Source of the DNA: a bacterium
Lineage (GTDB): Bacteria > Eisenbacteria > RBG-16-71-46 > CAIMUX01
DNA length: 64,000 nt
NCBI GenBank assembly: GCA_030431975.1
Contig: JAUIHP010000008.1
Location: forward strand, 170,318 to 234,317
Reading direction: 5' to 3'
This document shows, in pieces, positions 1,162 to 32,811 of the stretch. Below the pieces are notes generated by a model. The model was not told where the DNA came from. It was given only the letters and a program-made list of their open reading frames with translations, and did not search any database. Position 1 is the stretch's first letter, and the number at the start of each line of letters is the position of its first letter. Made by a program: the position numbers and the translations under genes.

Positions 1162-4100
1162 CTAGAATTCGGCCAGGCGTTCTTTTTCGACAAAGACCGC
1201 CAACTTTCCGGTGGTTGTTCCGATTCCGTCTGCTTCCACGTGATAGATGTAGATGCCGCTTGCAACCGGGATGCCGGCACGATTGTCCAGATCCCAGCGC
1301 AGGATCGACTCATTCATGTCGTCCTTACGCAGCGTGCGAACGAGTTCGCCGGCAAGGTCGAAGATACGAACCGTACACGTCGTGTTCGGCAGATTGATGA
1401 ATCGCAGGATCCGGTCGAACTGGTTGAGTTCGTAGGACGACTGGTTCAGGTACGGATTCGGCACGGCCCGGATCTTGGCCAGGTCGTTGTCGAGATTCGT
1501 TCCCGTGCCGGCACCGACCGGTTGGGCCTGCCACTCGTACACGTCCCCATCCGTGAGGATCTTGTTCATCGTGAAGTACCAGGTGCCTTCGGACTCCATC
1601 CAGGGCCGGTCGCCGCGGAGACGGGGCCATCCAGCGATGAGCACGTCCGTGTTACGGCCGTCGGTGTCAGAACCGGGGTCGCCATAAATCACGGGATTGT
1701 TCTCATCGTACTCGCTATCCATGATGAAGAAGTACTCGCGCCCACCGAGTGCACTGCCATCCGGATTCCAGATGAAGTCTGCAGGCTTGTCGATGTTCCC
1801 GTCGTTGTCCGCATCTTCTTCGTTCTCGACGAGGTTGATGTTCAGACGACGGTGATTGGCCGGGTCCGCATCGGTCACGTCCCACGCCTGGCCCGGGAAC
1901 ATTCCCGTACCGAGAGTGGCGTATCCCTGATCACGACGATAGGTCTGACACTCCGTCCACTCACCCTCGTCGGCGATGAACCGGATCTCGATCGCCTTCG
2001 TAAAGGCCGGGATCGGAAGGTTCGAGCCGAAGAACTCAAAGCCAAGCCCGACTCCGCCGTTGAAGGTCGAGCCACCCCAATCGACCCACGAGACCCATCG
2101 GGCGCCGTTCGGCTCGTTGGCCGTCCAACCCCACTCACGAACAGCCAGCTCCGGACCGACAACCTGGACGATGAAGCCCTCCGTAATCGGATTGAAGTAG
2201 TCGGCCGTGAGGTTCGTTTGATTCTCGAGTAGAACCTCACCCGTCGTCAGATTCTCGAGATCCCAGAGGTACAGGATCGGAGAGTCCGCGTCAGGATTCG
2301 GTTTGAAAGATACCTGGTAGCGATCTGTGGAAATCTCATCCTGGTTGACATAGTCGACCCGAACAGAACCATCGCTGATACCCATCGTGTGGTCAGCGAT
2401 CTGATGGAGGGTCGCTGTGCTCGCTTTCGGCATTGCCACGAGGGCCTGCTGGCTGTTCTCGAGCGTCTTGGTCACCACACCGAGACCGGTGCCGTCCGCG
2501 TCCTGGTAGGGAGCGACCTTGTTGACCTCGGCCGAGTAGGCGGTCACGGCATAGTAGTAGTCACGGTAGTTGACCAGCGGCCCACCAACGATCCGATCCG
2601 TGTCGAGCCGGATGTTCCACTGCAGGCCGTTGTCGTTTCCGGACTGCGTGAGACGACGCTCGATGACACCAACGTCCGCGTTCACAACATCGGAATAAAT
2701 GGAAGAGAACTGGCTCTCGGCATCGAACGTGGCGATCTTTTGCCACGGACCGGCCGGAGAAGACCCCTGCCACACATTGTAGCCTTCGAACTCGTAACGC
2801 TCGCCGAGGCGATCACTGATCTCGATCTGCTCTTCGCGATACGGCTCCCAGTAGATGTCGATCTCGCCGTCATACTCACGAACGTGAGAGACCGGCCGCG
2901 GCGGAGGCTGCGGAAGGTCGAAATTCACGTCGTAGGCGGACTGAGCTTCCTTGTCGTAGATCTTGAGGAGCGTGATCGAACTGAGGCGCTCACTACCCTG
3001 CGCAACGATAATCCCGACCACGATCTCCTGCTCGTCGCCCGGCTGCATCTCGAAAGGACCGGCAGAGAGCATGAAGCGACGGTCCGCCGGGTTCGAGTCG
3101 AGCCAGCCCGTGCCCAGAACTGGATCGCCCGGAACTTGGAACAACGTTTCCTCACCCGTCACCTCGTCCATGACCGGCGTTCCGTCGGCATTGAGACCCA
3201 ACATGTAGTTGTAAGTCTCGACCGGCGTATGCGGGTCCGTACCGTTGATGTACTTGTTGAACGAGGTCATGGGAAGATTCCGGAAGTCCGGGATGGGCAG
3301 GCCACTGACATACGCTGTATCTCCCGGAGACGCAACGATCGGTCCCTGGAAGAAGTCGTACCCAACGGCCGGAGGACGCCCGCCGTAGAGCTGGTCAGTG
3401 TTGTTGGCGTTGTAGCAGTAGCCGAGACTGAGATCGGTATCGCAGCCGACCAGGTCGTCTCCGGCACCGCCCAGGTCCGGATCGCTCCAGACCGAAGCAT
3501 AGGCGTCCTTGAGGACGTTCTCGCTCTTGTTGATCATCTTGAACTTGACGAAGATCGTGTTTCCGAGCCCCTCCGTCCGATCGAACGCGAACGTGGTCTG
3601 CTGGACCTCGATCCCGAGCGGCTGCGAAGCGCCGGCGTCGTTCGTGTGAACGGTAGGATCGGCGTCGTTGTAGACCGCCCACAACGTCTGGTCACCCAGC
3701 CGCTGAGGCTTCCACGTCGCCATGTTGTTCGGGTCATAGTCCGCATCCGATGTATCGACCGGAGCGCCGAGTTCGAACGGCCACTCCAGGTAGTCCTGGC
3801 TGGTGACGTGATCGGGGTCGTTCCAGTCAATTTTGTAAGTGCGATTCTCGGCGGAGCCTGGATCGGTCCAGGTGCCGTCCGCATTGATCACACCCGGGTT
3901 GTACTCCTGCGAGTACTCACCAACCGTGACGCGGGCGTTCTCCTCATCCCCCACCTTGGCGCCGACCCAGAGTCCCGACGCGAAGACAACGGTATTGTCC
4001 GTTCCTCGTGGATAGATGAGACCCGAGTTACCGGCCTCGATGTCATACGCGAACGATCCATGGTTCGTCACCACCATCTCGCACTGATTGACGTCGATGC

Positions 4101-4221
4101 GGGTCTCGTTGTCGATGATCTGCGGCACCGCGGCATCCGGACCGGGTGCTGCCGTCGACGACGACGCGAGAGCGGCAATGAGAGCCCCCGCGACGACGAA
4201 TGATCCTTTCGTTGCCGACAT
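1162..4221 (-). CDS. Large secreted protein with FlgD-like C-terminal Ig domain
   Basis: About 1,019 residues from the ATG at 4221, which has a strong AAGGAGGAAAC ribosome site; an in-frame ATG at 4242 has none. A signal peptide ends near residue 25 (SSSTAAPG). The middle includes a fibronectin-like stretch (ERYEFEGYNVWQGS) and many acidic Asp/Asn loops. The C-terminal 70 residues (VRIFDLAGELVRTL, then SGIYIYHVEA) match the FlgD-like Ig fold used as a sorting-type tail in FCB candidate phyla. It sits between a TonB receptor and a PorV homologue, so it is probably a surface or periplasmic partner of that receptor. No enzymatic motif was recognised, and the substrate is unknown. Confidence 0.75.
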   Translation of the reverse strand: MSATKGSFVVAGALIAALASSSTAAPGPDAAVPQIIDNETRIDVNQCEMVVTNHGSFAYDIEAGNSGLIYPRGTDNTVVFASGLWVGAKVGDEENARVTVGEYSQEYNPGVINADGTWTDPGSAENRTYKIDWNDPDHVTSQDYLEWPFELGAPVDTSDADYDPNNMATWKPQRLGDQTLWAVYNDADPTVHTNDAGASQPLGIEVQQTTFAFDRTEGLGNTIFVKFKMINKSENVLKDAYASVWSDPDLGGAGDDLVGCDTDLSLGYCYNANNTDQLYGGRPPAVGYDFFQGPIVASPGDTAYVSGLPIPDFRNLPMTSFNKYINGTDPHTPVETYNYMLGLNADGTPVMDEVTGEETLFQVPGDPVLGTGWLDSNPADRRFMLSAGPFEMQPGDEQEIVVGIIVAQGSERLSSITLLKIYDKEAQSAYDVNFDLPQPPPRPVSHVREYDGEIDIYWEPYREEQIEISDRLGERYEFEGYNVWQGSSPAGPWQKIATFDAESQFSSIYSDVVNADVGVIERRLTQSGNDNGLQWNIRLDTDRIVGGPLVNYRDYYYAVTAYSAEVNKVAPYQDADGTGLGVVTKTLENSQQALVAMPKASTATLHQIADHTMGISDGSVRVDYVNQDEISTDRYQVSFKPNPDADSPILYLWDLENLTTGEVLLENQTNLTADYFNPITEGFIVQVVGPELAVREWGWTANEPNGARWVSWVDWGGSTFNGGVGLGFEFFGSNLPIPAFTKAIEIRFIADEGEWTECQTYRRDQGYATLGTGMFPGQAWDVTDADPANHRRLNINLVENEEDADNDGNIDKPADFIWNPDGSALGGREYFFIMDSEYDENNPVIYGDPGSDTDGRNTDVLIAGWPRLRGDRPWMESEGTWYFTMNKILTDGDVYEWQAQPVGAGTGTNLDNDLAKIRAVPNPYLNQSSYELNQFDRILRFINLPNTTCTVRIFDLAGELVRTLRKDDMNESILRWDLDNRAGIPVASGIYIYHVEADGIGTTTGKLAVFVEKERLAEF

Positions 4222-4241
4222 GTTTCCTCCTTGGTCTCTCA

Positions 4242-7046
4242 TTAGAATCCCATCCGCAGACCGAAGCGAACGAGCCGCGGAATATCGAAGTTGTTCGGGT
4301 TGCGCTCTTTCAGGCGATACAAAGCCTGTTCCTCAGGCGTGTCGAAAGAGGCTGCGCCCTCGGTCTCATCCAGGAAGGTCGTCGACAGGGCGTCGCCCGA
4401 GCCTTCGTAGACGAAGATAGCATTGCGCTTGTCGAAGGCGTTGAGCACCCAGACAAAGGCGTCCAAGTCGAAACCACCGAGCTCGAAGGCCTTGTTCGCC
4501 TTCAGGTCGACCCGAAGGTTCCACGGTCCGGTCAGCTCGTTGATCGCACCGGCGTTCTCCGCGGAGACGCTGGCCAAGGTGACTTCGTTGTAGACCTTCC
4601 GCGGCGTAAAGGGGCTGCCGCTGGTCGCGTTGAAGATCACATTGAGCCCGGCATTCTGCAGCGGGAAGCTGTTGCCGAGGACTGGGCCGTCTTCCTGACC
4701 GAACCGGTAGTCGAGGTTCGCGGTCACGATGTGACGCTGGTCGAAGTCGAGCGGCGAAGTCAGCTTCGGCGGTTCGCTGTCCGTCCAGGCGATGTTCCGC
4801 TGCGTATCCGAAGCAGAACCCGTTCCACGTGCCCAACTCAACGTGTAGAACAGATTGGCCGAAAGGCGATCCGTTCCACGGTAGTCAAACTGGAAGTCGA
4901 ACCCTTTGATCGTGCCGTAGTCCGAGTTACGGAAGGAGCTGTACGCATTCGGTGAGGCCGGGATGTTTTGCACCTGAACGAGATTCTTGACGTCCTTGTA
5001 GAACATCGTGATCTCGAAGGCTGCGTTGTCCGCGACCTGCTTGCTCAGACCGAACTGGTAGGCGGTCGTCTCTTCCGGCTCGAGGTTCGGATTTCCGAAC
5101 GGATAGAAGTAGCCGCCCGTCTTCACCTTGTGCTCGAGGAACTTGTAGCTGACGTAGAGGTCTTCCAGATTCGGCTGCTGGAAGAACTTTCCGTAGTTCA
5201 TGTGGAACTGGGTCTGCTCCCCGATCGGGAAGGCGACGCCGAGACGAGGAGAGATCTTGTTGAACGCCTCAGCGTCCTCCAAGTCTTCCGGATCGAGGGT
5301 CGTTCGGTCCTGGCCCAACGGGAGCCTTTCGTCGACCAAACGCTCCGTCGCCGTGTCCAGGTAGTCGTAACGCAGGCCGGCACGGACGACGAAGTCATCC
5401 GTCTCGTACAGGTTCTGCAGATACAGACTGAAGTCCATCGGCTCCTTGACGCCGTCAAGGCCACCGTCCTCGGTGTCCTGACCGTCGAAGGTGTATCCGT
5501 AGTTGTCGACATCGATGAAGCCCGTGGCCTCATCGGCGACGCGAACAGGGAAGAGATGGCGATAGCGACGCAGCTGGTGCTGGCGAAGCTCGATGCCGGC
5601 CTTACCGGTATTCTGGTCACTCCAGCGGTACGTACCGTTTCCACGGAACCCGATGTAGGAAGACTCACGCTTGAGGTAATCGTCCCAGACGTGTCCGCCG
5701 CCGGCTTCGTTATCCGGGCCGTAGTAGAAGAGCGGGCTCGCCTGGTCGTAGAGTGGGTTTCCGTCCGGACGGGCGTAGGCGTAGATGTCGTCGAAGTGGA
5801 CACCATCGCCACGGAAGCGCTTCGTCTCGAACCAGTTCACAGAGACGTCATAGAACGCCTCCTCGGAAACCGTGTGGGTGAAGGTTCCGAAGAAGCTGTT
5901 GTTGTCGTCGTCGTACCGCGGAGTATGTCCCGGGTTGAACAGGTAGGCGTGACGGTACTCCTGCCAGTCGTCGGCGGACCCGAGGGTCCCCAGCTTGACC
6001 TTCATCGAGTTGGTGGGAGCCCAGGTCAACTTGCCCTGCCAGGAATACCCGCTGAGGCTGTTGAAAGGCAGGCGATCATCCGTGAAGAGAGCAGCCTGCT
6101 CAGCCGTGAGACCGAGGTCGGCGACCGGGCGAGGAGCGCGGTCGGCCTGCCAACGACGTTCTCCGGAAACGAAGAAACTGAGGTTGTCGTTCCCCGGGAT
6201 CAGCGGTCCGCCGAGCGACCCGCTGTAGATGTTGTAGTCGTAGGTCGTACTACCGACGGCGTCCGCCAAAACGTCGGAGATGATCTCGACGTTTCCGGTG
6301 TACTCATCTCTGGCTTCCTTGGTCACCACGTTGACGACGCCGGACATGATCTTGCCGTACTCGGCGTCGAACCCACCGGTCAGGACGACGACCTGATTGA
6401 TGGCGTCCTGGTTGATGTTGGTGGACGAGATACCGGTCAGCGGATCCTGCTGGGAGAAGCCGTCGACGAAGTACGCAACTTCGTTGGAGCGACCTCCACG
6501 GATGTAGAGTTTCGAGCCGTTGCTCGACTCCTCTCCGGCAACACCGGCTGCGAACGAGGCGACGCCGGCCTGAAGACCGGCCGCATCCTGGTATCCGCGA
6601 ATGGGCAGATTCTCGATTTCTTCCGAATCGACGATCCGCACCGAGCTGGTCTGATCCCGCTGAATGAGCGGTTTCTCAGCCCGAACCTCGACAGCCTCGA
6701 CCTGAAGGGCGACGCTCGTCTCGAGCTTGAAATCCAGCTTCTTCGTAAAGTCCGCGGCGACCAGGACATTGTTGATGAGGAGCGGTTTGTAGCCCATCAC
6801 CGTTGCCTGGACCCCGTAACTACCGGCCGGAACATTGAGAATGAAGTACTCTCCATCCTCGTTCGAGGCTGCACCCATGGTTGTTCCAACGATCACCACG
6901 TTGGCCGCAGGTAGCGGGAGACCGGACCCCTGGTCCAAAATGACTCCCGAAATCGTACCCGTTGTTCCGGCAAAGGCCGTACCCGCCATCCCAATAGTGA
7001 AGGCAAGCGAAAGCCACAGCCGCAAGAATTGCGGTCTGAACGACAT
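4242..7046 (-). CDS. TonB-dependent receptor with carboxypeptidase-regulatory-like domain
   Basis: A 934-residue outer-membrane receptor. The ATG at 7046 is preferred because AAGGGGG lies just upstream; an in-frame start at 7106 would place 20 non-signal residues ahead of the signal peptide. After the signal peptide (cleavage near AFA-GT) comes a CarboxypepD_reg-like domain (GTISGVILDQGSG, about residues 28-110). A plug domain follows (RGGRSNEVAYFVDGF; VVLTGGFDAEYGKIMSGVVNVVTK), then a 22-strand-type barrel ending RLVRFGLRMGF. Such receptors import ligands with TonB/ExbBD energy. It is the first gene of the operon with the secreted protein and the PorV homologue, and the layout resembles a SusC-like receptor with a non-SusD partner. 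No TonB or ExbBD gene is nearby. The ligand cannot be read from the sequence. Confidence 0.88.
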   Translation of the reverse strand: MSFRPQFLRLWLSLAFTIGMAGTAFAGTTGTISGVILDQGSGLPLPAANVVIVGTTMGAASNEDGEYFILNVPAGSYGVQATVMGYKPLLINNVLVAADFTKKLDFKLETSVALQVEAVEVRAEKPLIQRDQTSSVRIVDSEEIENLPIRGYQDAAGLQAGVASFAAGVAGEESSNGSKLYIRGGRSNEVAYFVDGFSQQDPLTGISSTNINQDAINQVVVLTGGFDAEYGKIMSGVVNVVTKEARDEYTGNVEIISDVLADAVGSTTYDYNIYSGSLGGPLIPGNDNLSFFVSGERRWQADRAPRPVADLGLTAEQAALFTDDRLPFNSLSGYSWQGKLTWAPTNSMKVKLGTLGSADDWQEYRHAYLFNPGHTPRYDDDNNSFFGTFTHTVSEEAFYDVSVNWFETKRFRGDGVHFDDIYAYARPDGNPLYDQASPLFYYGPDNEAGGGHVWDDYLKRESSYIGFRGNGTYRWSDQNTGKAGIELRQHQLRRYRHLFPVRVADEATGFIDVDNYGYTFDGQDTEDGGLDGVKEPMDFSLYLQNLYETDDFVVRAGLRYDYLDTATERLVDERLPLGQDRTTLDPEDLEDAEAFNKISPRLGVAFPIGEQTQFHMNYGKFFQQPNLEDLYVSYKFLEHKVKTGGYFYPFGNPNLEPEETTAYQFGLSKQVADNAAFEITMFYKDVKNLVQVQNIPASPNAYSSFRNSDYGTIKGFDFQFDYRGTDRLSANLFYTLSWARGTGSASDTQRNIAWTDSEPPKLTSPLDFDQRHIVTANLDYRFGQEDGPVLGNSFPLQNAGLNVIFNATSGSPFTPRKVYNEVTLASVSAENAGAINELTGPWNLRVDLKANKAFELGGFDLDAFVWVLNAFDKRNAIFVYEGSGDALSTTFLDETEGAASFDTPEEQALYRLKERNPNNFDIPRLVRFGLRMGF

Positions 7047-7638
7047 AGAACCCCCTTGTTTCTTTGCCTCAGACATCCTTTGTCCAAGCATCATCATGGT
7101 AGGCACCGATCTCCTGGCTCGTTCCCTGAGCTCGCGAAGGCAGTCTCCTTATGCCCTATGTGCGCGTCCAGTTCCCGGGAACCCAGTCCGGGTTTCCGGG
7201 TACGGAATGGTTTCCGTCGATCGGTTAGCGTGAAATTAGTATCCTAGCTAAAACCCTGTCAAGTCACTTCCGGACCGCGATACCAGACCAACTTTCGGTA
7301 CGGTGCCGAGTTACCACTCCGAAACGACCCACCTCCCCCACCACGAATCTCCATCGGCCCTCCTCCTCAAAACTTGTGTGAAGTCTGAAGGTGTCGCAGG
7401 GAATTTACATGCGCCTTGCAATTGCGGCCCGTGCAGCCTGCCCTCGGATTGCCCGTTCCGACACCTCCTCGGGCGCATCCCCCCCACGACATAAGTAGCT
7501 GTCCCGCCTGATTTTGCTCTCGCGGCCGCTTTCGCATGCCGATAACTCCGGAAGCGGCACGCGTCCTGCTTGGCACTAGGTGCATGGTGGTGGTGCGTGG
7601 CGCTCCCGTGTCCGCGTCAAATGAAGAGGTGTACGAAC
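7047..7638. other. Divergent intergenic region between receptor operon and prepilin operon
   Basis: This 592-bp gap separates two divergent operons and shows no convincing gene. It holds a near-consensus minus-strand promoter (listed separately) and a leader of about 180 nt ahead of the TonB receptor. The side toward the prepilin operon contains no promoter that I can assign with confidence. Confidence 0.6.
7235..7262 (-). promoter_or_regulatory. Sigma-70-type promoter for the TonB receptor operon
   Basis: On the minus strand a perfect -35 TTGACA (7262-7257) is followed after 16 bp by ACTAAT (7240-7235), a 4-of-6 match to the -10 box. It lies in an AT-richer pocket of an otherwise GC-rich region, about 190 bp upstream of the receptor start codon. 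The start site would fall near 7228, leaving a long leader. This is based on consensus matching only. Confidence 0.5.
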
Positions 7639-8112
7639 ATGTCCGATGTCCCGGCCCGAAAAACGAGAAAACGGAACGACGAGTCCGGCTTCACTCTGGT
7701 GGAAACGATGCTGGCTGTTTTCATGCTCGTCGTCGGTCTGTTGGCCGTCTCGCAGGTCTTCACGGTCTCGAGCCGTCACACCATGAACTCGCGGAAGGAG
7801 ACCACCGCCAACGCGCTGGCCCAGGAAATCCGCGAAAAGATCATGAGTGAGACCTTCGCCGACGTGAAATCCATCTTCGATGGAATCGATACGGACGACT
7901 CGGAGCTCCCTCAGCCGGCCCAGGATTGGGCGGGACATGTCACCGCACGACTCGGGATCGGCGCCCGCGGGGTCGTCGATGTTCAAGACCCCGACGAGCG
8001 GGCAGACCTCAACGACGGAATGTTTGCCGTCACCGTCACCCTGTCCTGGTACGAGGGACAAACCCTCGTTGACCTCCCGTTCGAGTTCATCATCGCCAAG
8101 ATCGGCGCCTGA
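7639..8112 (+). CDS. Type IV pilus minor prepilin, PilV-like
   Basis: A 157-residue prepilin. Residues near 19 carry the class III cleavage motif (SGFTLVETML), with Gly before the cut, Phe after it and Glu at +5, followed by the hydrophobic pilin helix (AVFMLVVGLLAVSQVF). The phrase ETMLAVFMLVVGLLAV is typical of PilV/PulI-type minor pilins. The ATG at 7639 is chosen because AAGAGG precedes it by 9 nt; upstream in-frame starts at 7570 (TTG) and 7621 (ATG) lack ribosome sites and would lengthen the leader. It is the first gene of a four-gene prepilin operon and would be cut by the PilD peptidase at 22669-23463. Minor pilins form the priming tip complex of the pilus. Confidence 0.85.
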   Translation: MSDVPARKTRKRNDESGFTLVETMLAVFMLVVGLLAVSQVFTVSSRHTMNSRKETTANALAQEIREKIMSETFADVKSIFDGIDTDDSELPQPAQDWAGHVTARLGIGARGVVDVQDPDERADLNDGMFAVTVTLSWYEGQTLVDLPFEFIIAKIGA

Positions 8113-8132
8113 CCGCGCGTAGGAGAATCCAT

Positions 8133-9815
8133 ATGAGCACCGATCTGACAACGAAACTCAGGATTGCAGTCCAGGCTCGCCGTAAAGACGGCGCAACGGT
8201 CGCAGCTTCCTCCTCGACTCGCCGCCGGCCGCGACGCTCGGAGGAGGGCAGCACGCTCCTGGTGGCCCTTCTGGTTCTAGGGTCTCTGTCGATCCTGGCC
8301 AGTGGCATCGTGGTTTCCGCAATGGGTGACCGCAACATGTCGAAGTACGAGCGGCATTCGTTGATGGCCCTGGGAGCCGCCGAGTCCGGCGTAGCCTTTG
8401 CCAAGAGAGCGATCGTCACGCAGTCGGCCGACATGGGCGACTACGACGCCGACGGACGCCCGGACTTTACCTTGAACGACTCCCTCTCCAACGGAGGCGC
8501 CTACTCCGTGGTGGCCGAAGCCTCCGACATCAAGGGTTTGGGCATCACGGCCTACCAGTCGAACGGTTTCGCCATCGTCTCTGAAGGAGAGTTCCTGGGC
8601 GCGAAGCGGCGGGTCAAGGCCGAGATCGTCCATGACTCATTTCTCAAGTTCGCCCGCTTCGTTTCGGTCAACAACCTGAACTACGGATGCGGTGCGGTGC
8701 TGACTGGAGAGGTGTACACGGGCGGCGACCTCAACGTCCCCTGCGGTTGCTCCTCGGGCCAGGAAGCACAGTTTCTGGAAAGCGCCTATGCCGTCGACGA
8801 CATCCCCAACGCCGGCTGCGGAATCTTCTACCGCGGCTACATTACGGACGCTGAGGTGATCGATCTCGAGAACTCCTTCGACTGGGGCGACACCCGTGAC
8901 CGGGCCCAGGGCGTCGCACCGGAGACCGACTGCGACGGCAAGGGTTCGGTCGGGATCTACATCAACCCGGGCGTCGAGGAGCCGATCAACTTCGGGCTAC
9001 AGGGCGGCGACTCGACCGACGTCATCGTTTTCGACTACTTCGACTTCCAAAACGTCACCCTTGTCCCCGGCGACACCGTCGTCACCTACCGCGGTGTGGC
9101 GGTCCCCAATCGAGTGACTTCGACCGCTCTGCGCTACGAGGACTTCAACGGGATGATCTTCGTGGAAGGGGACGCCGAAGTCATGGGTACCGCCGACGGC
9201 GTCGGGGCCCATCCGATGACCATTTTCGCAACCGACGATGTCGTGGTCCGCGAGAGCATCATTGCCGGCCACACCGGATACGACTCGGTGACCCGCCTAC
9301 CCGATGGATCCGGGGATCCGATCAACATCGGACTTGTCGGCGAGGATTACGTCGAGATGCATTCCAACACTCCAAAGGTTCTGCGGGTTGACGCCGCACT
9401 GTTCTCCCGTACCAACACATGGAGCGGTCGCGGGGACACAGGTACGCACCCCAACGCCCCTCTCGGTCCGCACGACCTGGACCTGGACGGAATCAGTGGT
9501 GAGTCGCCGGTGAACAACGACCCGACGCCGGGCGCCGGTTGGGACGAAATCATCACGACGTCCAACCGGTCCAAGACGTGGGTCCTCAATATCAATGGGC
9601 CCATCATTACCAAGTACTCCGGCTCTGCCTACCCGTGGAACGCGAGTACCGTTCTCGCGAACGCCGACGGCCCTACGCGGCGTTACAACTACGACCTCGA
9701 CATCGCCGAGTATCCACCGCCCTGTTTCCCGGTCCCGCTCAACCTTTGGAAAGAGGTTTCCTGGACCGAGATCTTCGAGGTCCGCAACGACCTCGTCGAA
9801 CACTTGCCGAACTAG
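8133..9815 (+). CDS. PilX-like pilus assembly protein (large)
   Basis: A 560-residue protein with an AGGAGAATCC ribosome site before the ATG. A basic N-terminus (about 38 residues) precedes EEGSTLLVALLVLGSLSILASGIV, the PilX N-terminal helix pattern, and then AALGAAESGVAFAKRA (seen here as MALGAAESGV), the conserved PilX signature after the helix. The long extracytoplasmic part has several Cys pairs (NLNYGCGAV, LNVPCGCSSG) and many Asp/Gly loops, and is far longer than the roughly 170-residue gammaproteobacterial PilX. It starts 21 bp after the PilV-like gene and ends 17 bp before the FimT-like gene. It probably belongs to the minor-pilin tip complex. The function of the long C-terminal region is unknown. 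Confidence 0.75.
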   Translation: MSTDLTTKLRIAVQARRKDGATVAASSSTRRRPRRSEEGSTLLVALLVLGSLSILASGIVVSAMGDRNMSKYERHSLMALGAAESGVAFAKRAIVTQSADMGDYDADGRPDFTLNDSLSNGGAYSVVAEASDIKGLGITAYQSNGFAIVSEGEFLGAKRRVKAEIVHDSFLKFARFVSVNNLNYGCGAVLTGEVYTGGDLNVPCGCSSGQEAQFLESAYAVDDIPNAGCGIFYRGYITDAEVIDLENSFDWGDTRDRAQGVAPETDCDGKGSVGIYINPGVEEPINFGLQGGDSTDVIVFDYFDFQNVTLVPGDTVVTYRGVAVPNRVTSTALRYEDFNGMIFVEGDAEVMGTADGVGAHPMTIFATDDVVVRESIIAGHTGYDSVTRLPDGSGDPINIGLVGEDYVEMHSNTPKVLRVDAALFSRTNTWSGRGDTGTHPNAPLGPHDLDLDGISGESPVNNDPTPGAGWDEIITTSNRSKTWVLNINGPIITKYSGSAYPWNASTVLANADGPTRRYNYDLDIAEYPPPCFPVPLNLWKEVSWTEIFEVRNDLVEHLPN

Positions 9816-9831
9816 CCGAGGGGAACGAAAC

Positions 9832-10380
9832 ATGCAACGTCGCCGAACCACCTTTCCAGCGCACTCGGAACCATCCGAGGACCGAAGCGTGCCTTGTCGT
9901 CACGCTCGGACCTCCCGGGGGTTCAGCCTGGTCGAGATCATGGTCGCATTGACCATCATCGGCATCGTCCTGGCGGCGGCGGTTCCGAACTTCACGAACC
10001 GCAACGCCCGCTACCGGGTGGAAGGTGCGGCGAAGGAAGTCGGTACTCGGATTGCCCTGGCTCGTCAGCAGGCTGTTGCAGAGCGGATGCCGTACCGGAT
10101 GGTCGTCGACGAGTCGGCCCGTTCCTACTACTTCGAGAAGCAGGAGAACGACTCGACCTGGACGATGTCTCCGAACGAGACCTACGAAATCAAAGGTGCC
10201 GAGACTCTTCTGATGGAGGTCGGCGAGAGTTCGACCTCTTCGACCGTGCGCTTGCAGCCTCGGGGGACGCTGCTCGACGAGGATGCACCGCTCATGATGC
10301 GTTTCGTGAGCGCCATGAACGACACGGCCTACCTCTCCGTTGTGCGGACGGGACGGACCGTGGTCACGATGTCCCAATGA
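9832..10380 (+). CDS. Type IV pilus minor prepilin, FimT/GspH-like
   Basis: A 182-residue prepilin from the ATG at 9832, which follows a GAGGGG ribosome site; the frame is open further upstream, but that part overlaps the PilX-like gene. After a fairly long basic leader comes the motif SRGFSLVEIMVALTIIGIVLAAAVPNF, with Gly/Phe at the cleavage site and Glu at +5. The following segment (AKEVGTRIALARQQAVAERMPYRMVVD) is typical of FimT/GspH pseudopilins. It belongs to the same operon as its neighbours; its stop overlaps a possible ATG (ATGA at 10377) for the next gene. The role is minor pilin priming; some FimT homologues bind DNA, which is not testable here. Confidence 0.85.
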   Translation: MQRRRTTFPAHSEPSEDRSVPCRHARTSRGFSLVEIMVALTIIGIVLAAAVPNFTNRNARYRVEGAAKEVGTRIALARQQAVAERMPYRMVVDESARSYYFEKQENDSTWTMSPNETYEIKGAETLLMEVGESSTSSTVRLQPRGTLLDEDAPLMMRFVSAMNDTAYLSVVRTGRTVVTMSQ

Positions 10381-10451
10381 CGATGAGGCTCGCCCCCACG
10401 AGTTCAACTGCGGTGAATCAGGACGGCCACCGACACCCGAGGAGAAAGCAG

Positions 10452-13283
10452 ATGCGAACGACAATCCGGCAGGCCGGTTTCACTCTCGTCGAGATGATGG
10501 TGGTCGTCGTGATCACCGGTTTCGTCTCGACGGCGATGTTCCAGATGCTCCAAGCCGGTCAGGCCACATACGAGCGCAACAAGATCGTTCTCGACGTTCA
10601 ACAAAACGGTCGAGTCGGCCTTCAGACCATCGCCGATGACATGCGACAGGTCAGCTACGGAAAGGATCCGACGCAACCCTCGATCCACTACGCGGGTCCG
10701 GACTCGGTTACGTTCGTTGCCGACATCATGCATGACGAACCCGGCGCCGAGGTCATCAGCTACTACCTTGGGGACGACGATCCGGAGACGCCCAACCCGT
10801 ACGACACCGTGCTCATGCGGACCGTCGCGGATACGGCGGGCACCGTTCTCATGGAAACGATTCAGACCTACGGCGTCGCCGCCAACGGCCTGTCCTTCCG
10901 TTGGTTCAATGGGTCCGGAGTGGAACTCTCCAATCCTGTTCCCCAGCCGGAGCAGGTCGGCGAGGTCTATATCGAGCTGCAAACAGTGGGCGCACGCTTG
11001 ATCGACGAGGAATACCCGACGCTGACCCTCTCGACGACGATCTATCCGCGTAACCTACCGCTTTCCCCCGCGCGAAGCCGCCCGAACACACCGGCCTGCA
11101 CGGGACCGTCCTATCCGAACTGTGAGTCGGCCCAGCTCGACTGGAGCACGCCAACCTACAACACGGACGGGACCGAGCTTCCGCTGGCGGAGATCAGTCA
11201 CTTCAACTTTTATTTCGGCACCGACCCGGACGACATGGGCCTCTACACCCGATTGGCACGAACCATCAACGAATGGACGGTTCCCGACCTGGAAGCCGGT
11301 ATCACCTACTACCTGGCGGTCAGTTGCGTGAGCCGTTCGGGTGTCGAGAGCTACCCGTGCACGCGGCAGGCCGTCGTCGGATCGGCCCTGGTTCCGCAGG
11401 CTCCGGCGTCGCTTAGCGCCAGCACGGCGGGCGGCGTCACCCTGAACTGGGACATCGTCACCGAGTTCACCAACGGAGACGGCATCGGGACACCGGTCAG
11501 CTACAACATCTACCGCTCGGACACGGCCGGCTTCACCCCCGGAACGACCAACTTCATCGACACGGTCTCGTGGACGACGACCTATGTCGATACCGAGACA
11601 TCTGGGATCACCTGCGGCACGTACTACTACCTGGTAACTGCAGAAGCATGCGGCAACGAGGGCGCACCGTCCCCGGAGGCCAACGGCAGCCTCCCGGCTC
11701 CTCCGTCCTGTCCCACGAACGTCTACGCGACGAACACGGGCGTCGAAGGCGAGGTCTTCGTCTCGTGGAACCTGCCGGCCACGCGACTCGACGGTTCGAG
11801 CCTCGACCCGAACGACATCGAGTACATCTACATCTATGCAGACACGGCCTCGGGGATGCCGAATGAGTTCTACGGCGTCGTTCCCGGGAACGAAACGTCG
11901 ACGACGATTCCCTACCTGGCCACCTGCACGACCTACTACTTCAATGTCAAGGCGGTGGACGTCTGCGGGCATGAAGGAGACATGTGCCTTGGCGAAGAGG
12001 TGTCCCTCTTCACCTCGGCGCCCTGCGATCCGGACGCTCCGCAAACTCCGGCCTATCTCTCGGTCACGGAGTACGACAGCAAGATGAAGCTGGAATGGCC
12101 GGCCAACGACGTCGACTGCGACCTTCAGGGCTACCGCATCTACTACGGGCACTACCCCGGAGACTACAGCGGTACCAACGCCTACGAAGGACCGAGCCCG
12201 ATCGAAGTGACGACCGACGCCGTCACCTACGGCAACCTTTGTGAGTTCGAACTCACCGGATTGCCGACCTGCACGAACTACTATGTCCAGGTCACGGCGA
12301 TCGACCAGTGCTCTCCTCCCAACGAGAGCTCGGCCAGTTCGGAAGGTAGCGGAACTACGAGCTGCATCTCCTGCAACACGACAGCCAACTGCATCCTCTG
12401 GACAGTTTCCGGCGGCAGCAACAACGAGCTCAACATCGAGCTCGAAGCCGGGGGCGCCACTGAGCTCCTGGCCGAGCTGACGCCTGACTGGTCGGGCGGC
12501 GCCTCGCTGCAGGAAGTCTGGTTCGGTCGTCCCCTGGCCAAGATTTGGGACTACGACGGTTCTGCGGGCGGAGACGGCTACACGGGTCCTGCCGGACCGG
12601 GGACGGTCCTCGACGTCGACGATGTCTACGTCGGAAGCTGGACCAATCAGGCCGACGGCGAGCCCTTGACCCTGGTCTTCGATACCGACGTTCGGGACGT
12701 GCCGGTCAACCTGCAGTTCACGGGCGACGCCGGCAGCTGCACCGCGGATGGATCCGGCGTCGGCTCCCTGGACTTCCAGAACTGGGATTCCGGCACCAGC
12801 GGCTGGTCATCCCAGAGTGGGAACTGGTTCACGTCCAACTATGAGTTGCACCAGACCTACACCGGCAGCAACTACATCATGCTCATGGACGGGCCGGACC
12901 GGACGGACTTGACCTTCGAAACAAAGGTCATGGCTTCCGGTGGTTCCTACCACTCGTCCTACCTGGTCTTCCGCTATGCCGACAGCAGCAACTACTACCT
13001 GTTCGGAATCCGCACCGACGCAAACAAGGTCCGGCTGGCTCGGATCCAGAACGGTTCCTTCATCGAGACCGGCGTGCACTACACGACGCTCTCCGACAAC
13101 ACGTGGTACACACTACGGGTCGTGGTCGAAGGAAACCGGATCCGGGGCTTCTTCGACTGTGAGCTCGTTCTCGACATCACAGATTCATCGATGTACTCGA
13201 GCGGCGACATCGGATTGACGACTCGACGCGCCGCCGGACGCTTCGACGATACCCGCGTCTTTTCCGGAGCGGTCATCCCGTGA
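10452..13283 (+). CDS. Giant modular PilW-like prepilin with FN3-like repeats and lectin-like C-terminus
   Basis: A 943-residue protein. Residues 1-35 form a class III prepilin signal (RQAGFTLVEMMVVVVITGF) with Glu at +5, followed by a PilW-like pilin region to about residue 210. Four fibronectin-III-like repeats then span roughly 216-636, each ending in a Tyr-rich strand (GITYYLAVS, CGTYYYLVTA, CTTYYFNVKA, CTNYYVQVTA) and many bearing paired Cys. After an uncharacterised segment (about 636-766) the last 170 residues look like a concanavalin-A/LamG-type sandwich (DLTFETKVMASGG, YLVFRYADSSNYYLFGI, WYTLRVVVEGNRIRGFFD). The ATG at 10452 has GGAG upstream; an in-frame ATG at 10377 overlapping the previous stop is an alternative. 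PilW proteins are normally a few hundred residues, so this is probably a tip adhesin. No PilY1 gene is seen in the window. Confidence 0.8.
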   Translation: MRTTIRQAGFTLVEMMVVVVITGFVSTAMFQMLQAGQATYERNKIVLDVQQNGRVGLQTIADDMRQVSYGKDPTQPSIHYAGPDSVTFVADIMHDEPGAEVISYYLGDDDPETPNPYDTVLMRTVADTAGTVLMETIQTYGVAANGLSFRWFNGSGVELSNPVPQPEQVGEVYIELQTVGARLIDEEYPTLTLSTTIYPRNLPLSPARSRPNTPACTGPSYPNCESAQLDWSTPTYNTDGTELPLAEISHFNFYFGTDPDDMGLYTRLARTINEWTVPDLEAGITYYLAVSCVSRSGVESYPCTRQAVVGSALVPQAPASLSASTAGGVTLNWDIVTEFTNGDGIGTPVSYNIYRSDTAGFTPGTTNFIDTVSWTTTYVDTETSGITCGTYYYLVTAEACGNEGAPSPEANGSLPAPPSCPTNVYATNTGVEGEVFVSWNLPATRLDGSSLDPNDIEYIYIYADTASGMPNEFYGVVPGNETSTTIPYLATCTTYYFNVKAVDVCGHEGDMCLGEEVSLFTSAPCDPDAPQTPAYLSVTEYDSKMKLEWPANDVDCDLQGYRIYYGHYPGDYSGTNAYEGPSPIEVTTDAVTYGNLCEFELTGLPTCTNYYVQVTAIDQCSPPNESSASSEGSGTTSCISCNTTANCILWTVSGGSNNELNIELEAGGATELLAELTPDWSGGASLQEVWFGRPLAKIWDYDGSAGGDGYTGPAGPGTVLDVDDVYVGSWTNQADGEPLTLVFDTDVRDVPVNLQFTGDAGSCTADGSGVGSLDFQNWDSGTSGWSSQSGNWFTSNYELHQTYTGSNYIMLMDGPDRTDLTFETKVMASGGSYHSSYLVFRYADSSNYYLFGIRTDANKVRLARIQNGSFIETGVHYTTLSDNTWYTLRVVVEGNRIRGFFDCELVLDITDSSMYSSGDIGLTTRRAAGRFDDTRVFSGAVIP

Positions 13284-14278
13284 TCGTCCGGTCGAACCTG
13301 CCTGGAACGAGCAAGGGAGTCCGGCCATGCGCCGGGCTCCCTTTCGCACTTTGGATCTCTCTCGCCTACATTCTGGGGATCGCGGCTGATGTCTGTGCAG
13401 TGGGCAACCCATCGTCCATTGCCTCAGGATCCGAAACGGGCGTGACGCCCTCGGCCCCCGACACCTTGGTCGTCTACCTGACGGGAGAGACTCGCGGCAA
13501 TCTCGTGCCGTGCCAGTGCCCGGACGGTCCCTGGGGAGGGCTGGACCGGCGCGTCGGCTTCCTCACCGAGCGGGCCAATACCGGGCCGGACAGTGAGTCG
13601 GGACCCACAACCTGGTACCTGGACTCCGGTGGCTTTCTTCCGGTCGGGGCAGTGCCGGTTCGCGACGATCCGGAAGCCGCACAACGCCTCGTGACCCTAC
13701 TTGTAAGTGCTCTGGACCGGTCGGGAGTCGATGCACTCGCCCTCAACCATCGAGAACGCGAGTACCTTCAGATGATGGCGGGAGAGGACTGGAGCCTCTT
13801 GAATGATCGAGCCCTGGATGCGGATCCCCCGTCTCCACATCGAGTGCTCGATTGGAATGGGACCCCCGTGGCCGTTCTCGCTCTCGAGGCGTCGCTCGAC
13901 ACGGAACTCATGGCACAGGCAGCATCCCGGGCGCGCGCAGACGCGGAGTTACTCTTCGTCCTGGCTCGAGCCGCGGGACCGTCGGGAAATCGGATTGCAG
14001 AGGCAACGGGAGCGGACCTCGTCCTCATGTCGCAAGGTTCGCGGCCACCTCGCCCCGTACGATCCGGGCGGACATGGCTGGTGGGACCGGGATCCAAGGG
14101 GAAGGAAGTCCTGGAGCTCAGGATCATTCGCGAAGAGCAGGGCCTCGACGTCATCTGGCACGAGCACGTCGCCATGGACTCGTTCGTCGAGGCGGATCCA
14201 GAGATGACCGACCGGGTCCGTCACCTTCTCGACGAATTCGGCCCGGGTTGGAGGACGCTCGTCACACCCTTGGAGTAG
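13280..14278 (+). CDS. Exported degenerate metallophosphoesterase-like protein with CxC motif
   Basis: A 332-residue protein starting at a GTG that overlaps the PilW stop (GTGA), so translation is coupled. An N-terminal hydrophobic segment (PFALWISLAYILGIAADVCAVG) suggests export. Residues near 65-95 read YLTGETRGNLVPCQCPDGPWGGLDRRVGFL, resembling the N-terminus of exported 5'-nucleotidase/UshA-like proteins that carry an LxPCGCxxxxxGGLxRR insert. The usual metal-binding DxH is here ExR (GETRG), so phosphoesterase activity is doubtful. Its place as last gene of the prepilin operon suggests a pilus-linked envelope role; this is inference. It ends 2 bp from the convergent PEP carboxykinase stop. 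Confidence 0.6.
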   Translation: MIVRSNLPGTSKGVRPCAGLPFALWISLAYILGIAADVCAVGNPSSIASGSETGVTPSAPDTLVVYLTGETRGNLVPCQCPDGPWGGLDRRVGFLTERANTGPDSESGPTTWYLDSGGFLPVGAVPVRDDPEAAQRLVTLLVSALDRSGVDALALNHREREYLQMMAGEDWSLLNDRALDADPPSPHRVLDWNGTPVAVLALEASLDTELMAQAASRARADAELLFVLARAAGPSGNRIAEATGADLVLMSQGSRPPRPVRSGRTWLVGPGSKGKEVLELRIIREEQGLDVIWHEHVAMDSFVEADPEMTDRVRHLLDEFGPGWRTLVTPLE

Positions 14279-17586: not shown

Positions 17587-19647
17587 TTAGCCGTTGCTGG
17601 CCATGGTCGTGATCTTCCGCGGGGTCACGAAAATGAGCAGTTCGCGCTTTTCCGTTACCTTGTCCGTGGACTTGAAGAGGTTACCCAGGAACGGAATCTC
17701 GCGCAGAATCGGAACGCCCTGCTCAAACTCGGTCTCGTTGGTCCGGATGAGACCGCCGATGACCGCCGTCTCGCCGTCCTTGACCATGATCCGGGTCTGG
17801 GCTTCGGTCGTATTGAAGATCAGTCCGCCCTGAACTGTGGCCTGGGACGAGAGGTCCGAGATCTCCGGGTGCAGATCCATCGTGATGTGCCCGTCCGAGT
17901 TGATGTACGGAGTCACACGAAGGGTGATACCCACCTTCTTCAGCTCGGTGACCGGGTTGCCGGCCTCGTCGAGCGTGATCAGCGGGATCTCCTTACCGAC
18001 CAGGATCTCGGCGGCGTGATTGTTCACCGTCGTAATCTTCGGATTGGAGATGATGTTTGCGTCGTTGGTCTGCTCGAATGCCTGCAGGGTCGCGTCAAGA
18101 TTGCCCCACGAACGGACCAGGCCGAAACGAAGCTGACCGCTGTCGTCGATGAGCGGCTCGCTGACGCCACCGGACATCGAGAAGCCCTCGTCGGCATCAC
18201 CGAGGTTGAGAGCGTCCCAGCTGACACCCAGTCGACGAACGGCGCTTACGTCCATGTCGACGAGGCGAGCCACGATCTCGACCTGTTCGGTCTCGGCGTC
18301 GAGGTTGCGGATGAGGCCGCCCGCATCCGCGATGCGAGGCGCAATGTCCGTCACGATGACGGCATTGGTCCGCGAGTCGTGAATGACGCTGCCACGCTCA
18401 CTGAGCACGACCTTGACGGCATCGACGAGTTCCTTGGAGTTGGCATAGCCGACGCGGAAGACGTGCGTCTCCAGCTGCATCAGCTCTTCCTTCTTCCGGG
18501 CACTCGACTCGCGCTCCAGCTCTTCGTTGTTGTAGGTCTTGGTCGTGGCCACGCGAATCACTCCGCTGTCCTCTTCGATCGCGATCAGTCCGGCGGACTT
18601 TGCCACGATGTCGAGAGCCTGGCGCCACGGGACCTCTTTCAGCTGAACCGAGACCGGCCCACTGACGTCCCGATCGGGAACGATGTTCTGACCGGAGAAG
18701 GCGGAGATCGAACGGAAGACCGTGCGGACATCCGCGTTCTGTACGTCAAGGTTCATGGCCCGACCGCCGGTCTGCATGAGACCGGCGCCTGTGGCCGTGG
18801 TCCCGAATCCGGAGTCCGGCGACTTGACGGCGCCGCGCGGATCCGCGTTCCCCATGTACGGAGAGTCATCCTGCCACGTGCCGGCGTCGGCCATGTCGGA
18901 ACCCGTGTCGTTCGTCGACATCGTGGAAGCATCCGAGCCGGTGTCGTGCGTCGACGTTGTGTGAGCACCTGAGCCCATTCCGTACATCGAAGTCGTACCG
19001 GAGGAGTTGTTCTCCTGCGTCGGCATCGGCGTCGTCTCATGCCCGGAAGCCATGAGGCTCGCGTCACCATGAGTGTCGTCGCCCATCGCCATCGCGCTGC
19101 GGAAGTCGGAGCTTCCACCGCCGGAATTCAGCATCCAGCCTGAATCTTCCCCGAGCATTTCGCCCTGGGCGAGACCTGACTGGTTCGACATCACTCCCGG
19201 AACTTCGCTTCCGCTCGGAACGAGGTGAACTTCGAGAGAGCCCTCGCCGGTGTTGGTCGCGTAGTCGACAGGAGCGTTCGTCTCGAGTACGTAGCGCACG
19301 ATGCGTCCGTTCTCGTCGTCCCGCCAAATGGAGGAACGGACCCTACTGACGATGCCTTCCGGCGTCCCGGCCAACTCGATCGGAGTATCCGCGCCAAAGA
19401 CATCGACCACGACGCGATACGGATCATCGAGACAGAAGACCTCATGAGAGAGGTTTCCGGATCCATCTGTCGCCTCGAGGCGAAGGACACCGCCTTCATC
19501 GTTGGAGTCGAGCGCAACCGTGCTCAAAGGGTAAGCGCCGGCATGGCCGAACCCTGTGAGGCAGAGCGCGGCCGTGAAGAGCGCTCCAAACGCACGACCC
19601 CGAAGGCGCGCTTTCTTCTGGCTAGCGTTCACCGCGTCCACGTGCAT
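17587..19647 (-). CDS. pilQ: Type IV pilus secretin PilQ
   Basis: A 686-residue outer-membrane secretin through which the pilus exits. Order: signal peptide (about 1-37), one AMIN domain (about 40-145) for peptidoglycan contact, a Ser/Thr/Gly/Met-rich low-complexity linker (about 150-295, with DTGSD repeats), an STN-like N domain (about 297-370, NADVRTVFRSISAFSGQNIV), a secretin N domain (about 400-470), and the secretin pore (about 505-680; ISNPKITTVNNHAAEILVG, VKDGETAVIGGLIR, PFLGNLFKS). The ATG at 19647 overlaps the 3' end of pilP and has AAGGGA upstream. It is the last gene of pilMNOPQ. Having a single AMIN domain and the long disordered linker is unlike well-studied PilQ proteins, but the core is intact. 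Confidence 0.95.
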   Translation of the reverse strand: MHVDAVNASQKKARLRGRAFGALFTAALCLTGFGHAGAYPLSTVALDSNDEGGVLRLEATDGSGNLSHEVFCLDDPYRVVVDVFGADTPIELAGTPEGIVSRVRSSIWRDDENGRIVRYVLETNAPVDYATNTGEGSLEVHLVPSGSEVPGVMSNQSGLAQGEMLGEDSGWMLNSGGGSSDFRSAMAMGDDTHGDASLMASGHETTPMPTQENNSSGTTSMYGMGSGAHTTSTHDTGSDASTMSTNDTGSDMADAGTWQDDSPYMGNADPRGAVKSPDSGFGTTATGAGLMQTGGRAMNLDVQNADVRTVFRSISAFSGQNIVPDRDVSGPVSVQLKEVPWRQALDIVAKSAGLIAIEEDSGVIRVATTKTYNNEELERESSARKKEELMQLETHVFRVGYANSKELVDAVKVVLSERGSVIHDSRTNAVIVTDIAPRIADAGGLIRNLDAETEQVEIVARLVDMDVSAVRRLGVSWDALNLGDADEGFSMSGGVSEPLIDDSGQLRFGLVRSWGNLDATLQAFEQTNDANIISNPKITTVNNHAAEILVGKEIPLITLDEAGNPVTELKKVGITLRVTPYINSDGHITMDLHPEISDLSSQATVQGGLIFNTTEAQTRIMVKDGETAVIGGLIRTNETEFEQGVPILREIPFLGNLFKSTDKVTEKRELLIFVTPRKITTMASNG

Positions 19648-20191
19648 TGTTCGATCCCTTTCCTTCGGTCAGCGGAACCCGGATGCTCTGCCCGATCCCA
19701 TAGTTGTCTACGTAAAGAACGATCCCGTCCGGATTGATTCGTGTCACCGTGGCGTTCTTGAAGTGATCGCCCTGGCGCAGAATCGCACTCGTACCATCCG
19801 CCGTCTCAACCAGAGCGAACTTGTCGTGATCACCCCAGAGGATTCCGACGACGGTGATGCTGTCCTTCCCCACTCTGTCGGTGTCTTCCTCGCCGCGTTC
19901 GGCGACCATGCTGACGAAGGGGTCCCGACGTCCCAAGCTCTCGTAGTAGTACGGATCCGGGCTGAGGAGGATTTCATCGAGCATTCCGGTGCCGACGCCG
20001 GTCGTATCCGACGCAAGACCCTCGGCCGTGACCGCATCTTCGCCGCCCATACGCTCGGCTCGCTGGTCCACGACTTTCTTCACCGCGTCCTTCAGGCCGA
20101 CCGTCTCACGTGCCGAGACTCCAAGTCCCGTTCCGAAGACGAAAGCCGTTCCCAGGACAGGAATCATGATCCATCTCGAGTGCCGCTTCAT
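19622..20191 (-). CDS. pilP: Type IV pilus alignment protein PilP
   Basis: A 189-residue periplasmic protein linking the PilNO inner-membrane complex to the secretin. It has an N-terminal hydrophobic segment (residues 7-27) with no lipobox Cys, unlike lipoprotein PilP of Pseudomonas. The motif SLGRRDPFVSMV is the conserved PilP entry (GxRDPF), followed by the small beta domain (SITVVGILWGDHDKFALVETADG, RQGDHFKNATVTRI, GIVLYVDN). Its ATG overlaps the pilO stop (ATGA) and its end overlaps the pilQ start by 26 bp, indicating coupled translation. Confidence 0.88.
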   Translation of the reverse strand: MKRHSRWIMIPVLGTAFVFGTGLGVSARETVGLKDAVKKVVDQRAERMGGEDAVTAEGLASDTTGVGTGMLDEILLSPDPYYYESLGRRDPFVSMVAERGEEDTDRVGKDSITVVGILWGDHDKFALVETADGTSAILRQGDHFKNATVTRINPDGIVLYVDNYGIGQSIRVPLTEGKGSNNARGRGER

Positions 20192-20850
20192 TCGCCGCCT
20201 CCTCGTGCATGGGCTGCACCCGTGTTGGCCGCCGTCGCTCCCGCCGCACCGCCTTCGCCGACTGCGGCTTCAGGAACGCCGCCCAGGCGGTAGGCCACGG
20301 CTTCAAACGTTGCCGTCGATGTCTGGCCATCCCGAGCTTCGCGATCCTCGATCGTCGCAACGCTCAGGGACGAGACGTTGATGATCCGTCGCATGTTGGC
20401 AACCTCACTGAGGAACGCCCCCACCTGGTGGTAGCCACCGGCGACCGTGATCTCGACCGGGATCTCCGTGTAGTCGACAGCCGGACGAGCCGGAAGCGGA
20501 CGGAACTGCGTAAACTCGACGCCGGCTCGCGTTCCCAGGAGAGTGACCTTGCGGAGGAGTTCGACCATCTCGTCTTCCTCAGGTAGAAGAAGACGGCCCT
20601 GTTCCCATTTCCGGTGAAGGAGTTCGTACTCCTTCTCCAGATACGGAAGGCGATTGATCGCCTGGCGGGCCTTGTTCAGGTCCTTACTCAACTCCCGGTA
20701 CTCTTCCTCGAGCTCGTCGAGCTCCGAAGCGTTCGCCTTATAGGTGAACGAGAACCAGTCCGTCATGAAGTAAACGTAGAGAATGGCGACCAGGCCGACT
20801 CCGCCCAATATGCCCTTCTGTACGCGTGGATCTCTCAGGTTGATTGCCAT
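20188..20850 (-). CDS. pilO: Type IV pilus inner-membrane alignment protein PilO
   Basis: A 220-residue bitopic membrane protein. One transmembrane helix (about residues 13-30, GGVGLVAILYVYFMTDWF) is followed by a coiled coil (about 37-85, ELDELEEEYRELSKDLNKARQ) and a ferredoxin-like domain containing ITVAGGYHQVGAFLSEVANM, the usual PilO core. The C-terminus is Gly/Ala-rich. The family pairs with PilN. GGGGGA lies upstream of the ATG; its stop overlaps pilP (ATGA), and it starts 25 bp after pilN. Confidence 0.9.
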   Translation of the reverse strand: MAINLRDPRVQKGILGGVGLVAILYVYFMTDWFSFTYKANASELDELEEEYRELSKDLNKARQAINRLPYLEKEYELLHRKWEQGRLLLPEEDEMVELLRKVTLLGTRAGVEFTQFRPLPARPAVDYTEIPVEITVAGGYHQVGAFLSEVANMRRIINVSSLSVATIEDREARDGQTSTATFEAVAYRLGGVPEAAVGEGGAAGATAANTGAAHARGGGE

Positions 20851-20875
20851 CGATGTAGTCCCCCGTCGGACCGGG

Positions 20876-21445
20876 TCAAGGTTTTACCGTCGCCGAAATC
20901 GTGAACTCGAGGACGGACGGGCCCTCAGTGACCGCGCGATCCTTCGCCCTTTCGGATAGGACGATCGACACGCTTTCGAACATCTCGCTCTCTTCCATGC
21001 GCCGCATGAGCTCGGCCACCATCAGATTGGAGAATGTTCTTCCCACGATCTCGACCTGACCTCGGTTGATCTCCGAGACCTTCGTGAACCAGAGGTAGTT
21101 CGGCACCAGAGCGGACATCTCGTCCATGAGCGAGACCGAGAAGAATCGCTCCCGGGTCAGTGTCTGAATGACCGCCAGTCTCTGATTCAGCTGTTCGCGT
21201 TGAGCCATGAGCTGGTTGATGCGATCGATCTGCGGCTGCAGTCGACGATGTTCGACCTCCGCCGCCTGGATGTCCGCTCGCAGGGATGCGATCTTCACGC
21301 TCTGCATGAGATGCACACCGGCAATCGGAACCAGGACCGCACCCAGCGCAATCAGCGTCACCCAGATTTTCGCCCGGGGAACTTGGACACTGATTGATGG
21401 CTCTGGGACTCGTTCTTCTTCTGGGAGTAAGTTGACCCGAATCAC
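20876..21445 (-). CDS. pilN: Type IV pilus inner-membrane protein PilN
   Basis: A 189-residue protein with the family-defining N-terminus MIRVNLLPEEE, which binds the PilM groove in the cytoplasm. A transmembrane helix follows (about residues 29-48), then a coiled coil (about 50-95, with IQAAEVEHRRLQPQIDRINQLMAQ) and a periplasmic domain (RERFFSVSLMDEMSALVPNYLWFTKV). Translation starts at GTG in a GTGA overlap with the pilM stop. The motif, length and position all agree. Confidence 0.93.
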   Translation of the reverse strand: MIRVNLLPEEERVPEPSISVQVPRAKIWVTLIALGAVLVPIAGVHLMQSVKIASLRADIQAAEVEHRRLQPQIDRINQLMAQREQLNQRLAVIQTLTRERFFSVSLMDEMSALVPNYLWFTKVSEINRGQVEIVGRTFSNLMVAELMRRMEESEMFESVSIVLSERAKDRAVTEGPSVLEFTISATVKP

Positions 21446-22485: not shown

Positions 22486-22668
22486 CGGAACCTCCTGGAG
22501 CCGAAGGATCTCCCTGGCAATGTGGCTCTCGGGGACAGAAGCGCCCCGCTTGCTCACCCTCTGTTACATCGGCCAGACGGTGGCCGGGGTTTACCGTTCG
22601 CTTGGCCTTTCCCCCCGAACCGGCCTTTTTTGCGCACACTCGCTCACACACGGGACTTACCTCCGAAT

Positions 22669-31575: not shown

Positions 31576-31586
31576 GGTGCGTTTCC

Positions 31587-32705: not shown

Positions 32706-32777
32706 TGCTGCTTAGTCCTCCGTGATTCACCAGCCGTACTAAGATCGGCCCTTCGTCGGGTCGTCTTGAGGATTCGC

Positions 32778-32807: not shown

Positions 32808-32811
32808 AAGA

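Follow-up and report, generated by a model that had tools for sequence, protein, structure and literature searches.

This locus raises the question of how a diderm type IV pilus sticks to surfaces without PilY1. The window, the whole 64,000-nucleotide stretch analyzed here, comes from an Eisenbacteria genome. It encodes a 943-residue prepilin, hereafter the giant. An earlier note, made from the letters of the window, had read it as a minor pilin that may have a built-in adhesin in place of PilY1.

The giant prepilin, its operon, and the pilus machinery

The coordinates 10452 to 13283 on the forward strand are the exact bounds of the open reading frame. The protein opens with a typical class III signal, MRTTIRQAG|FTLVEMMVVVVITGFV. 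N_methyl PF07963 (residues 6 to 30, E 5.8e-7, 29.3 bits against a cut-off of 21.2) and TIGR02532 (NCBIfam) both scored over their cut-offs, which bears out the clear prepilin signal of the earlier note. The gene divides as follows.

10452 to 13283, forward: giant PilW/GspJ-type modular prepilin, 943 aa (translation, Pfam/NCBIfam, orthologues, structure model)
10452 to 10478, forward: class III leader MRTTIRQAG, predicted PilD cut after G9, mature protein starting FTLVE (sequence; PF07963, TIGR02532)
10479 to 11066, forward: pilin module, alpha-1 helix 12 to 64 and beta head, ending at the junction motif R200-N201-L202-P203 (model; junction alignment with the short-PilW C-terminal LRN)
11067 to 12362, forward: four FN3 domains, approximate borders 206 to 310, 311 to 416, 417 to 522, and 523 to 637, with 15 Cys (Pfam fn3, Foldseek FN3 tandems, Cys conservation)
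12363 to 12779, forward: Cys-rich beta domain, about 638 to 776, with no assigned family (model strands; Pfam and PDB sequence searches without a match)
12780 to 13283, forward: CBM66-like (concanavalin-type) C-terminal module (PDB levanase CBM66, E 4.7e-19; PF06439)

A modular type IV pilin has an N-terminal class III signal and extra C-terminal domains foreign to pilus biology, and is processed by prepilin peptidase and built into the filament (PMC8179133). The giant has the signal and the extra domains, which are fn3 and CBM66-like. Its architecture thus places it among the modular type IV pilins; its processing by PilD and its assembly into a filament are predicted.

The minor-pilin set is complete, with PilV, PilX, and GspH/FimU genes ahead of the giant PilW as the last prepilin gene. 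The neighboring genes are these.

7639 to 8112, forward: PilV/GspI-type minor prepilin (TIGR02523, 39.4 bits, below the cut-off of 52.2)
8133 to 9815, forward: PilX/GspK-type minor prepilin, 560 aa (PilX_N E 4.8e-4, below cut-off; C terminus conserved in relatives)
9832 to 10380, forward: FimU/GspH-type minor prepilin (N_methyl over cut-off; GspH models sub-threshold)
13280 to 14278, forward: UshA-like family gene (sub-threshold), 332 aa, with a PCxCP motif (NCBIfam; tblastn)
17587 to 19647, reverse: PilQ secretin (TIGR02515 over cut-off)
19622 to 22557, reverse: candidate PilP (by position only), PilO, PilN, and PilM (Pfam/NCBIfam for the last three)
22669 to 23463, reverse: PilD prepilin peptidase, the sole Peptidase_A24 of the genome (whole-genome search)
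26045 to 26488, reverse: PilA-type candidate major pilin
30355 to 34521, reverse: PilC platform protein, PilT-like ATPase, and PilB ATPase

With its partner genes at 7639 to 10380, the giant holds the J place in a four-gene H-I-J-K minor-pilin operon. It scored below the cut-off of the curated gspJ model (TIGR01711, 14.1 bits against 64.85). Its assignment to PilW/GspJ follows from its operon position and from the pilin module that it has in common with the short PilWs of the phylum. Judged by gene content, the machinery beside the giant is that of a T4aP rather than a T2SS.

The UshA-like gene overlaps the stop of the giant by four bases and may belong to the same operon. UshA-like genes often adjoin the giant in relatives from the same order (L031/L051, L032, L057). 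The genome also contains a second type IV filament locus (L108, G000:C10, positions 6618 to 14193). It encodes three PilA-like prepilins of 177 to 206 aa (mature) and no PilY1.

Domain make-up and conservation of the arm

AlphaFold2 run on the giant alone (single sequence) gave an unusable model with a pLDDT of 33.5. The model used here was built on a 9-sequence alignment and had a mean pLDDT of 75.9. It contains the long helix, a beta pilin head to about residue 199, and all-beta domains to residue 938. The beta domains of the arm are four FN3 domains (about 206 to 637), one more (638 to 776), and a last one (785 to 938). The pTM of 0.33 and the low whole-chain TM-scores leave the spatial arrangement of these domains unfixed. 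The top PDB matches from Foldseek include FN3 tandems (LAR FN1-4, E 2.4e-17; fibronectin FN7-B-8-9, E 9.5e-16), and Pfam fn3 matched the protein with an E value of 1.6e-12. The four FN3-like repeats first read from the sequence thus stand, and both FN3 and lectin-like folds were predicted and matched.

The domain at about 638 to 776 had no Pfam and no PDB sequence match. It is a conserved beta domain between FN3-4 and the CBM66-like module (window positions 12363 to 12779) and carries the motif GRPLxKIWDxDGSAGGDGNVGP... All 20 cysteines of the giant are in the arm, with none in the pilin module, and most are invariant. Two of the eight sequences lack C420 and C512 together, the pattern expected of a disulfide. 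The stalk stabilized by paired cysteines that the earlier note suggested fits this pattern, which is compatible with disulfides but is not proof of them.

The C-terminal domain matched PF06439 above the curated cut-off (residues 782 to 935, E 2.6e-7). A single-sequence phmmer search against the PDB matched levanase CBM66 chains at 780 to 932 (E 1.7e-10), and a family profile matched levanase CBM66 at 786 to 938 (E 4.7e-19). LamG_3 PF13385 scored below cut-off on the isolated domain. By sequence similarity the nearest family is CBM66; the earlier label of concanavalin/LamG-like is right at the superfamily level.

The same domain order was found in eight relatives: 7 of the 10 other members of the order, at 44 to 50% identity over the aligned length (45 to 51% as given by the search), and L056. 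The copies of G001, G004, G005, and G007 are full length; those of G006, G008, and G009 are either split or truncated at contig ends. A contig scan with the single giant protein gave no matches, and a scan with the alignment found relatives. The named public records are Candidatus Eisenbacteria MAGs, apart from L056, a full-length copy under the label Gemmatimonadetes, and L058, from an unclassified bacterium. The L058 copy (9995 to 12821) was taken for its arm only. Its gene shifts frame near the pilin/arm junction, possibly through a sequencing error, decay to a pseudogene, or programmed frameshifting. The pilin module (55 to 61% identity) and the first FN3 domain (47 to 62%) are the best conserved parts. 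Most domains farther out, including FN3-3 and the CBM66-like module, have lower identity. A chance or assembly fusion was rejected on the recurrence of this architecture in the eight relatives.

Alternation of giant PilW and PilY1

PF05567 (PilY1) had no match in the giant itself and none anywhere in the 97%-complete genome. The same search was also silent in control genomes, so the absence of PilY1 was checked by another route. PF05567 was searched in the 47 genomes of the class (these make up the entire phylum in the data set), and a profile was built from six full PilY1 proteins. PF05567 matched in 6 of the 47 Eisenbacteria genomes and was absent from 41; the in-phylum profile recovered the same six and no further ones. 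The absence of PilY1 reported for the window therefore extends to the whole genome, and neither search found a separate pilY1 elsewhere in it. Prepilin matches outside the window include loci on C10 and C22 and single matches on C24 and C28; a second minor-pilin set with PilY1 was sought by reading the C10 and C22 loci. Neither of these two loci has one: their pilins are short and of different kinds, and PilY1 is absent from both.

The six PilY1 loci encode GspH (129 to 131 aa mature), PilV (109 to 110 aa), and PilW (181 to 185 aa), followed by PilY1. In G015, G032, and G033 a short PilX (148 to 155 aa) was read between these genes. PilX is large in giant operons (about 410 to 560 aa). PilY1 adjoins the giant PilW in 0 of 31 giant operons (538 to 990 aa as read, with some giants truncated at a contig end), 18 of which have at least 2.8 kb of readable contig downstream. 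In G032 and G034 the two operon kinds coexist, each on a contig of its own; the rule therefore holds per operon and not per genome. The main operon of G016, whose PilW has no readable signal, was left out of the counts. The other G016 locus (C17) encodes a 276-aa PilW and no PilY1.

Fisher tests of giant PilW against PilY1 gave 2.5e-6 for the 31 operons and 4.0e-5 for the 18, values that overstate the case because the PilY1-linked PilWs are one clade (support 100/99) and related genomes are not independent. On this tree the association of PilY1 with short PilW may rest on few evolutionary events. The alternation across the phylum, PilY1 loci with a short PilW and giant operons without PilY1, is the strongest support for a minor pilin with a built-in adhesin in place of PilY1, and at the genomic level that interpretation is supported.

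L072 (G032:C56, positions 1871 to 10214) and L077 (G042:C548) each contain two giant PilW operons in tandem in one genome, each operon with its own GspH and PilV. G032 has a separate PilY1 operon besides. It is possible that one cell has a repertoire of pilus caps.

Giants of other families occupy the same operon slot with other arms. L037 and L043 have a Gly-Thr-rich linker and FG-GAP repeats. L046, L072, and L080 have SdrD_B and FG-GAP, and L049 has invasin-type Ig and FG-GAP. FG-GAP repeats form propellers in known proteins. These arms invite comparison with the PilY1 propeller, as a likeness in kind of fold and not as established homology. A carbohydrate-binding relative is found for the FN3/CBM66 form only, the FG-GAP forms being without one. 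We found no paper describing FG-GAP prepilins in the literature searched.

Short PilWs end in ...STRITLRN(R/M). Giants run through ...STTIYPRNLP, ...TSVEPRNFP, ...INSMRSVP, or similar, and then the arm starts. Because the arms start where short PilWs stop, they appear to be appended at an equivalent junction, the natural C terminus of the pilin.

Proposed cap, alternatives, and known systems

The giant is probably a cap pilin whose fused lectin-like adhesin arm stands in for PilY1 and works like it while covalently attached. In a type IVa pilus cap made of the H-I-J-K minor pilins, it would take the J (PilW/GspJ) position, and the arm would extend from the natural C terminus of its pilin module. 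PilD would remove the nine-residue leader. The pilin module would then join FimU/GspH, PilV, and PilX to form the initiating cap, which would lead the filament out through PilQ. The arm of about 740 residues (four Cys-rich FN3 domains, one beta domain, and the CBM66-like module) would project from the tip. Its distal module may bind a glycan, either exopolysaccharide or surface polysaccharide. Cycles of PilB and PilT would pull on the bound glycan, and PilY1 would not be needed.

The arm could instead be an adapter that binds no surface itself and holds out another, secreted effector at the pilus tip, in the way that CofB carries CofJ in T4bP (PMC8179133). FN3 domains are common protein-protein spacers, and an overlapping UshA-like secreted gene follows the giant in several relatives. 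However, the free end already holds a module of carbohydrate-binding type, and no secreted partner shared by giants with other arms turned up in their neighborhoods; we consider an adapter unlikely. A place along the whole filament, or a role in priming a secretion pseudopilus, is a little more doubtful still; in either case the giant would not be a tip adhesin. A T2SS has H-I-J-K as well, without PilY1 (PMC10191384), and several matches in the locus are to Gsp pseudopilin models. Against a pseudopilus, the locus contains PilM, PilN, PilO, a PilQ that scores over its T4P cut-off, a PilT-like ATPase, and a PilA-type pilin. A bulky C-terminal arm suits a cap more than a packed shaft, though PMC8179133 leaves a shaft position possible.

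The above-cut-off PF06439 match would also fit a pilus-displayed enzyme, with a 3-keto-disaccharide hydrolase and no binding module at the C terminus. The noncatalytic levanase CBM66, which is the best solved relative of the domain, outscores it on this model (41.4 against 35.4 bits), so the PF06439 name does not indicate catalysis. The enzyme label was set aside as nondiagnostic on this control, and an enzyme is very improbable.

The cap pilin with a fused adhesin may be part of a wider pattern, toward which we lean slightly. Eisenbacteria T4aP may have two exchangeable caps. One would have a short J, a short K, and a separate PilY1. The other would have a giant J and a large K (about 410 to 560 aa) without PilY1, its adhesin joined to J at a constant junction and exchanged between lineages (FN3x4 and CBM66-like; Gly-Thr linker and FG-GAP propeller; SdrD_B and FG-GAP; invasin-type Ig and FG-GAP). 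The covalent fusion would replace the docking interface between PilY1 and minor pilin. The phylum is a natural comparison, with PilY1 and the fused pilin arm alternating per operon and sometimes inside one genome. This alternation makes it testable whether the essential job of PilY1 is to place an adhesin on the cap.

The giant shares its operon slot, pilin module, and neighbors with the PilW of the FimU-PilV-PilW-PilX-PilY1 operon of diderm T4aP, such as that of M. xanthus (PMC7541494). That PilW is short and has a separate PilY1, whereas the giant has a 740-residue arm and no PilY1. Like the PilY1/PilC tip adhesin (PF05567), the giant is a large, modular, proposed extracellular adhesin with a proposed place at the pilus tip. 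PilY1 is a non-pilin and, with no PF05567 match in the giant, not its homologue; the arm of the giant is covalent to a pilin. CBM66, known from the C-terminal module of levanase SacC and from a Cohnella xanthanase (PMC11002231), is the best sequence match of the C-terminal domain. Known CBM66 modules are carried by glycoside hydrolases, with fructan ends or a modified xanthan as ligands; the module of the giant is borne by a pilin.

A published survey counts over 1,200 modular pilins, spread over 264 architectures, with IPR003961 (FN3) and PF13385 (LamG-like) within the 15 commonest modules (PMC8179133). The most extreme many-domain example named there has 860 residues. The general principle, an adhesin borne by a modular pilin, is known from published work on Streptococcus sanguinis (PMC8179133, PMC9934059). 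A diderm J-subunit modular pilin alternating with PilY1 looks new; among open-access papers we found none on such a pilin or on a modular adhesin pilin in Eisenbacteria, which is weak evidence of novelty.

S. sanguinis PilB and PilC resemble the giant in having an adhesive module on a minor pilin, no PilY1, and a proposed tip complex. PilC is a glycan-binding pilin with an Ig-like domain and a concanavalin-type lectin, like the concanavalin-type end of the giant, and has been set against diderm PilY1 (PMC9934059). A tip position for a lectin-bearing modular pilin has experimental support in that species (PMC9934059). S. sanguinis has a monoderm three-subunit cap, whereas the giant is a diderm J-type subunit in a complete H-I-J-K set. 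It also differs from PilB and PilC in its four FN3 domains and CBM66-like module, its 943 aa, and its in-phylum alternation with PilY1. With the giant, the published concept of modular pilins reaches the J subunit of a complete cap and gains a new module combination.
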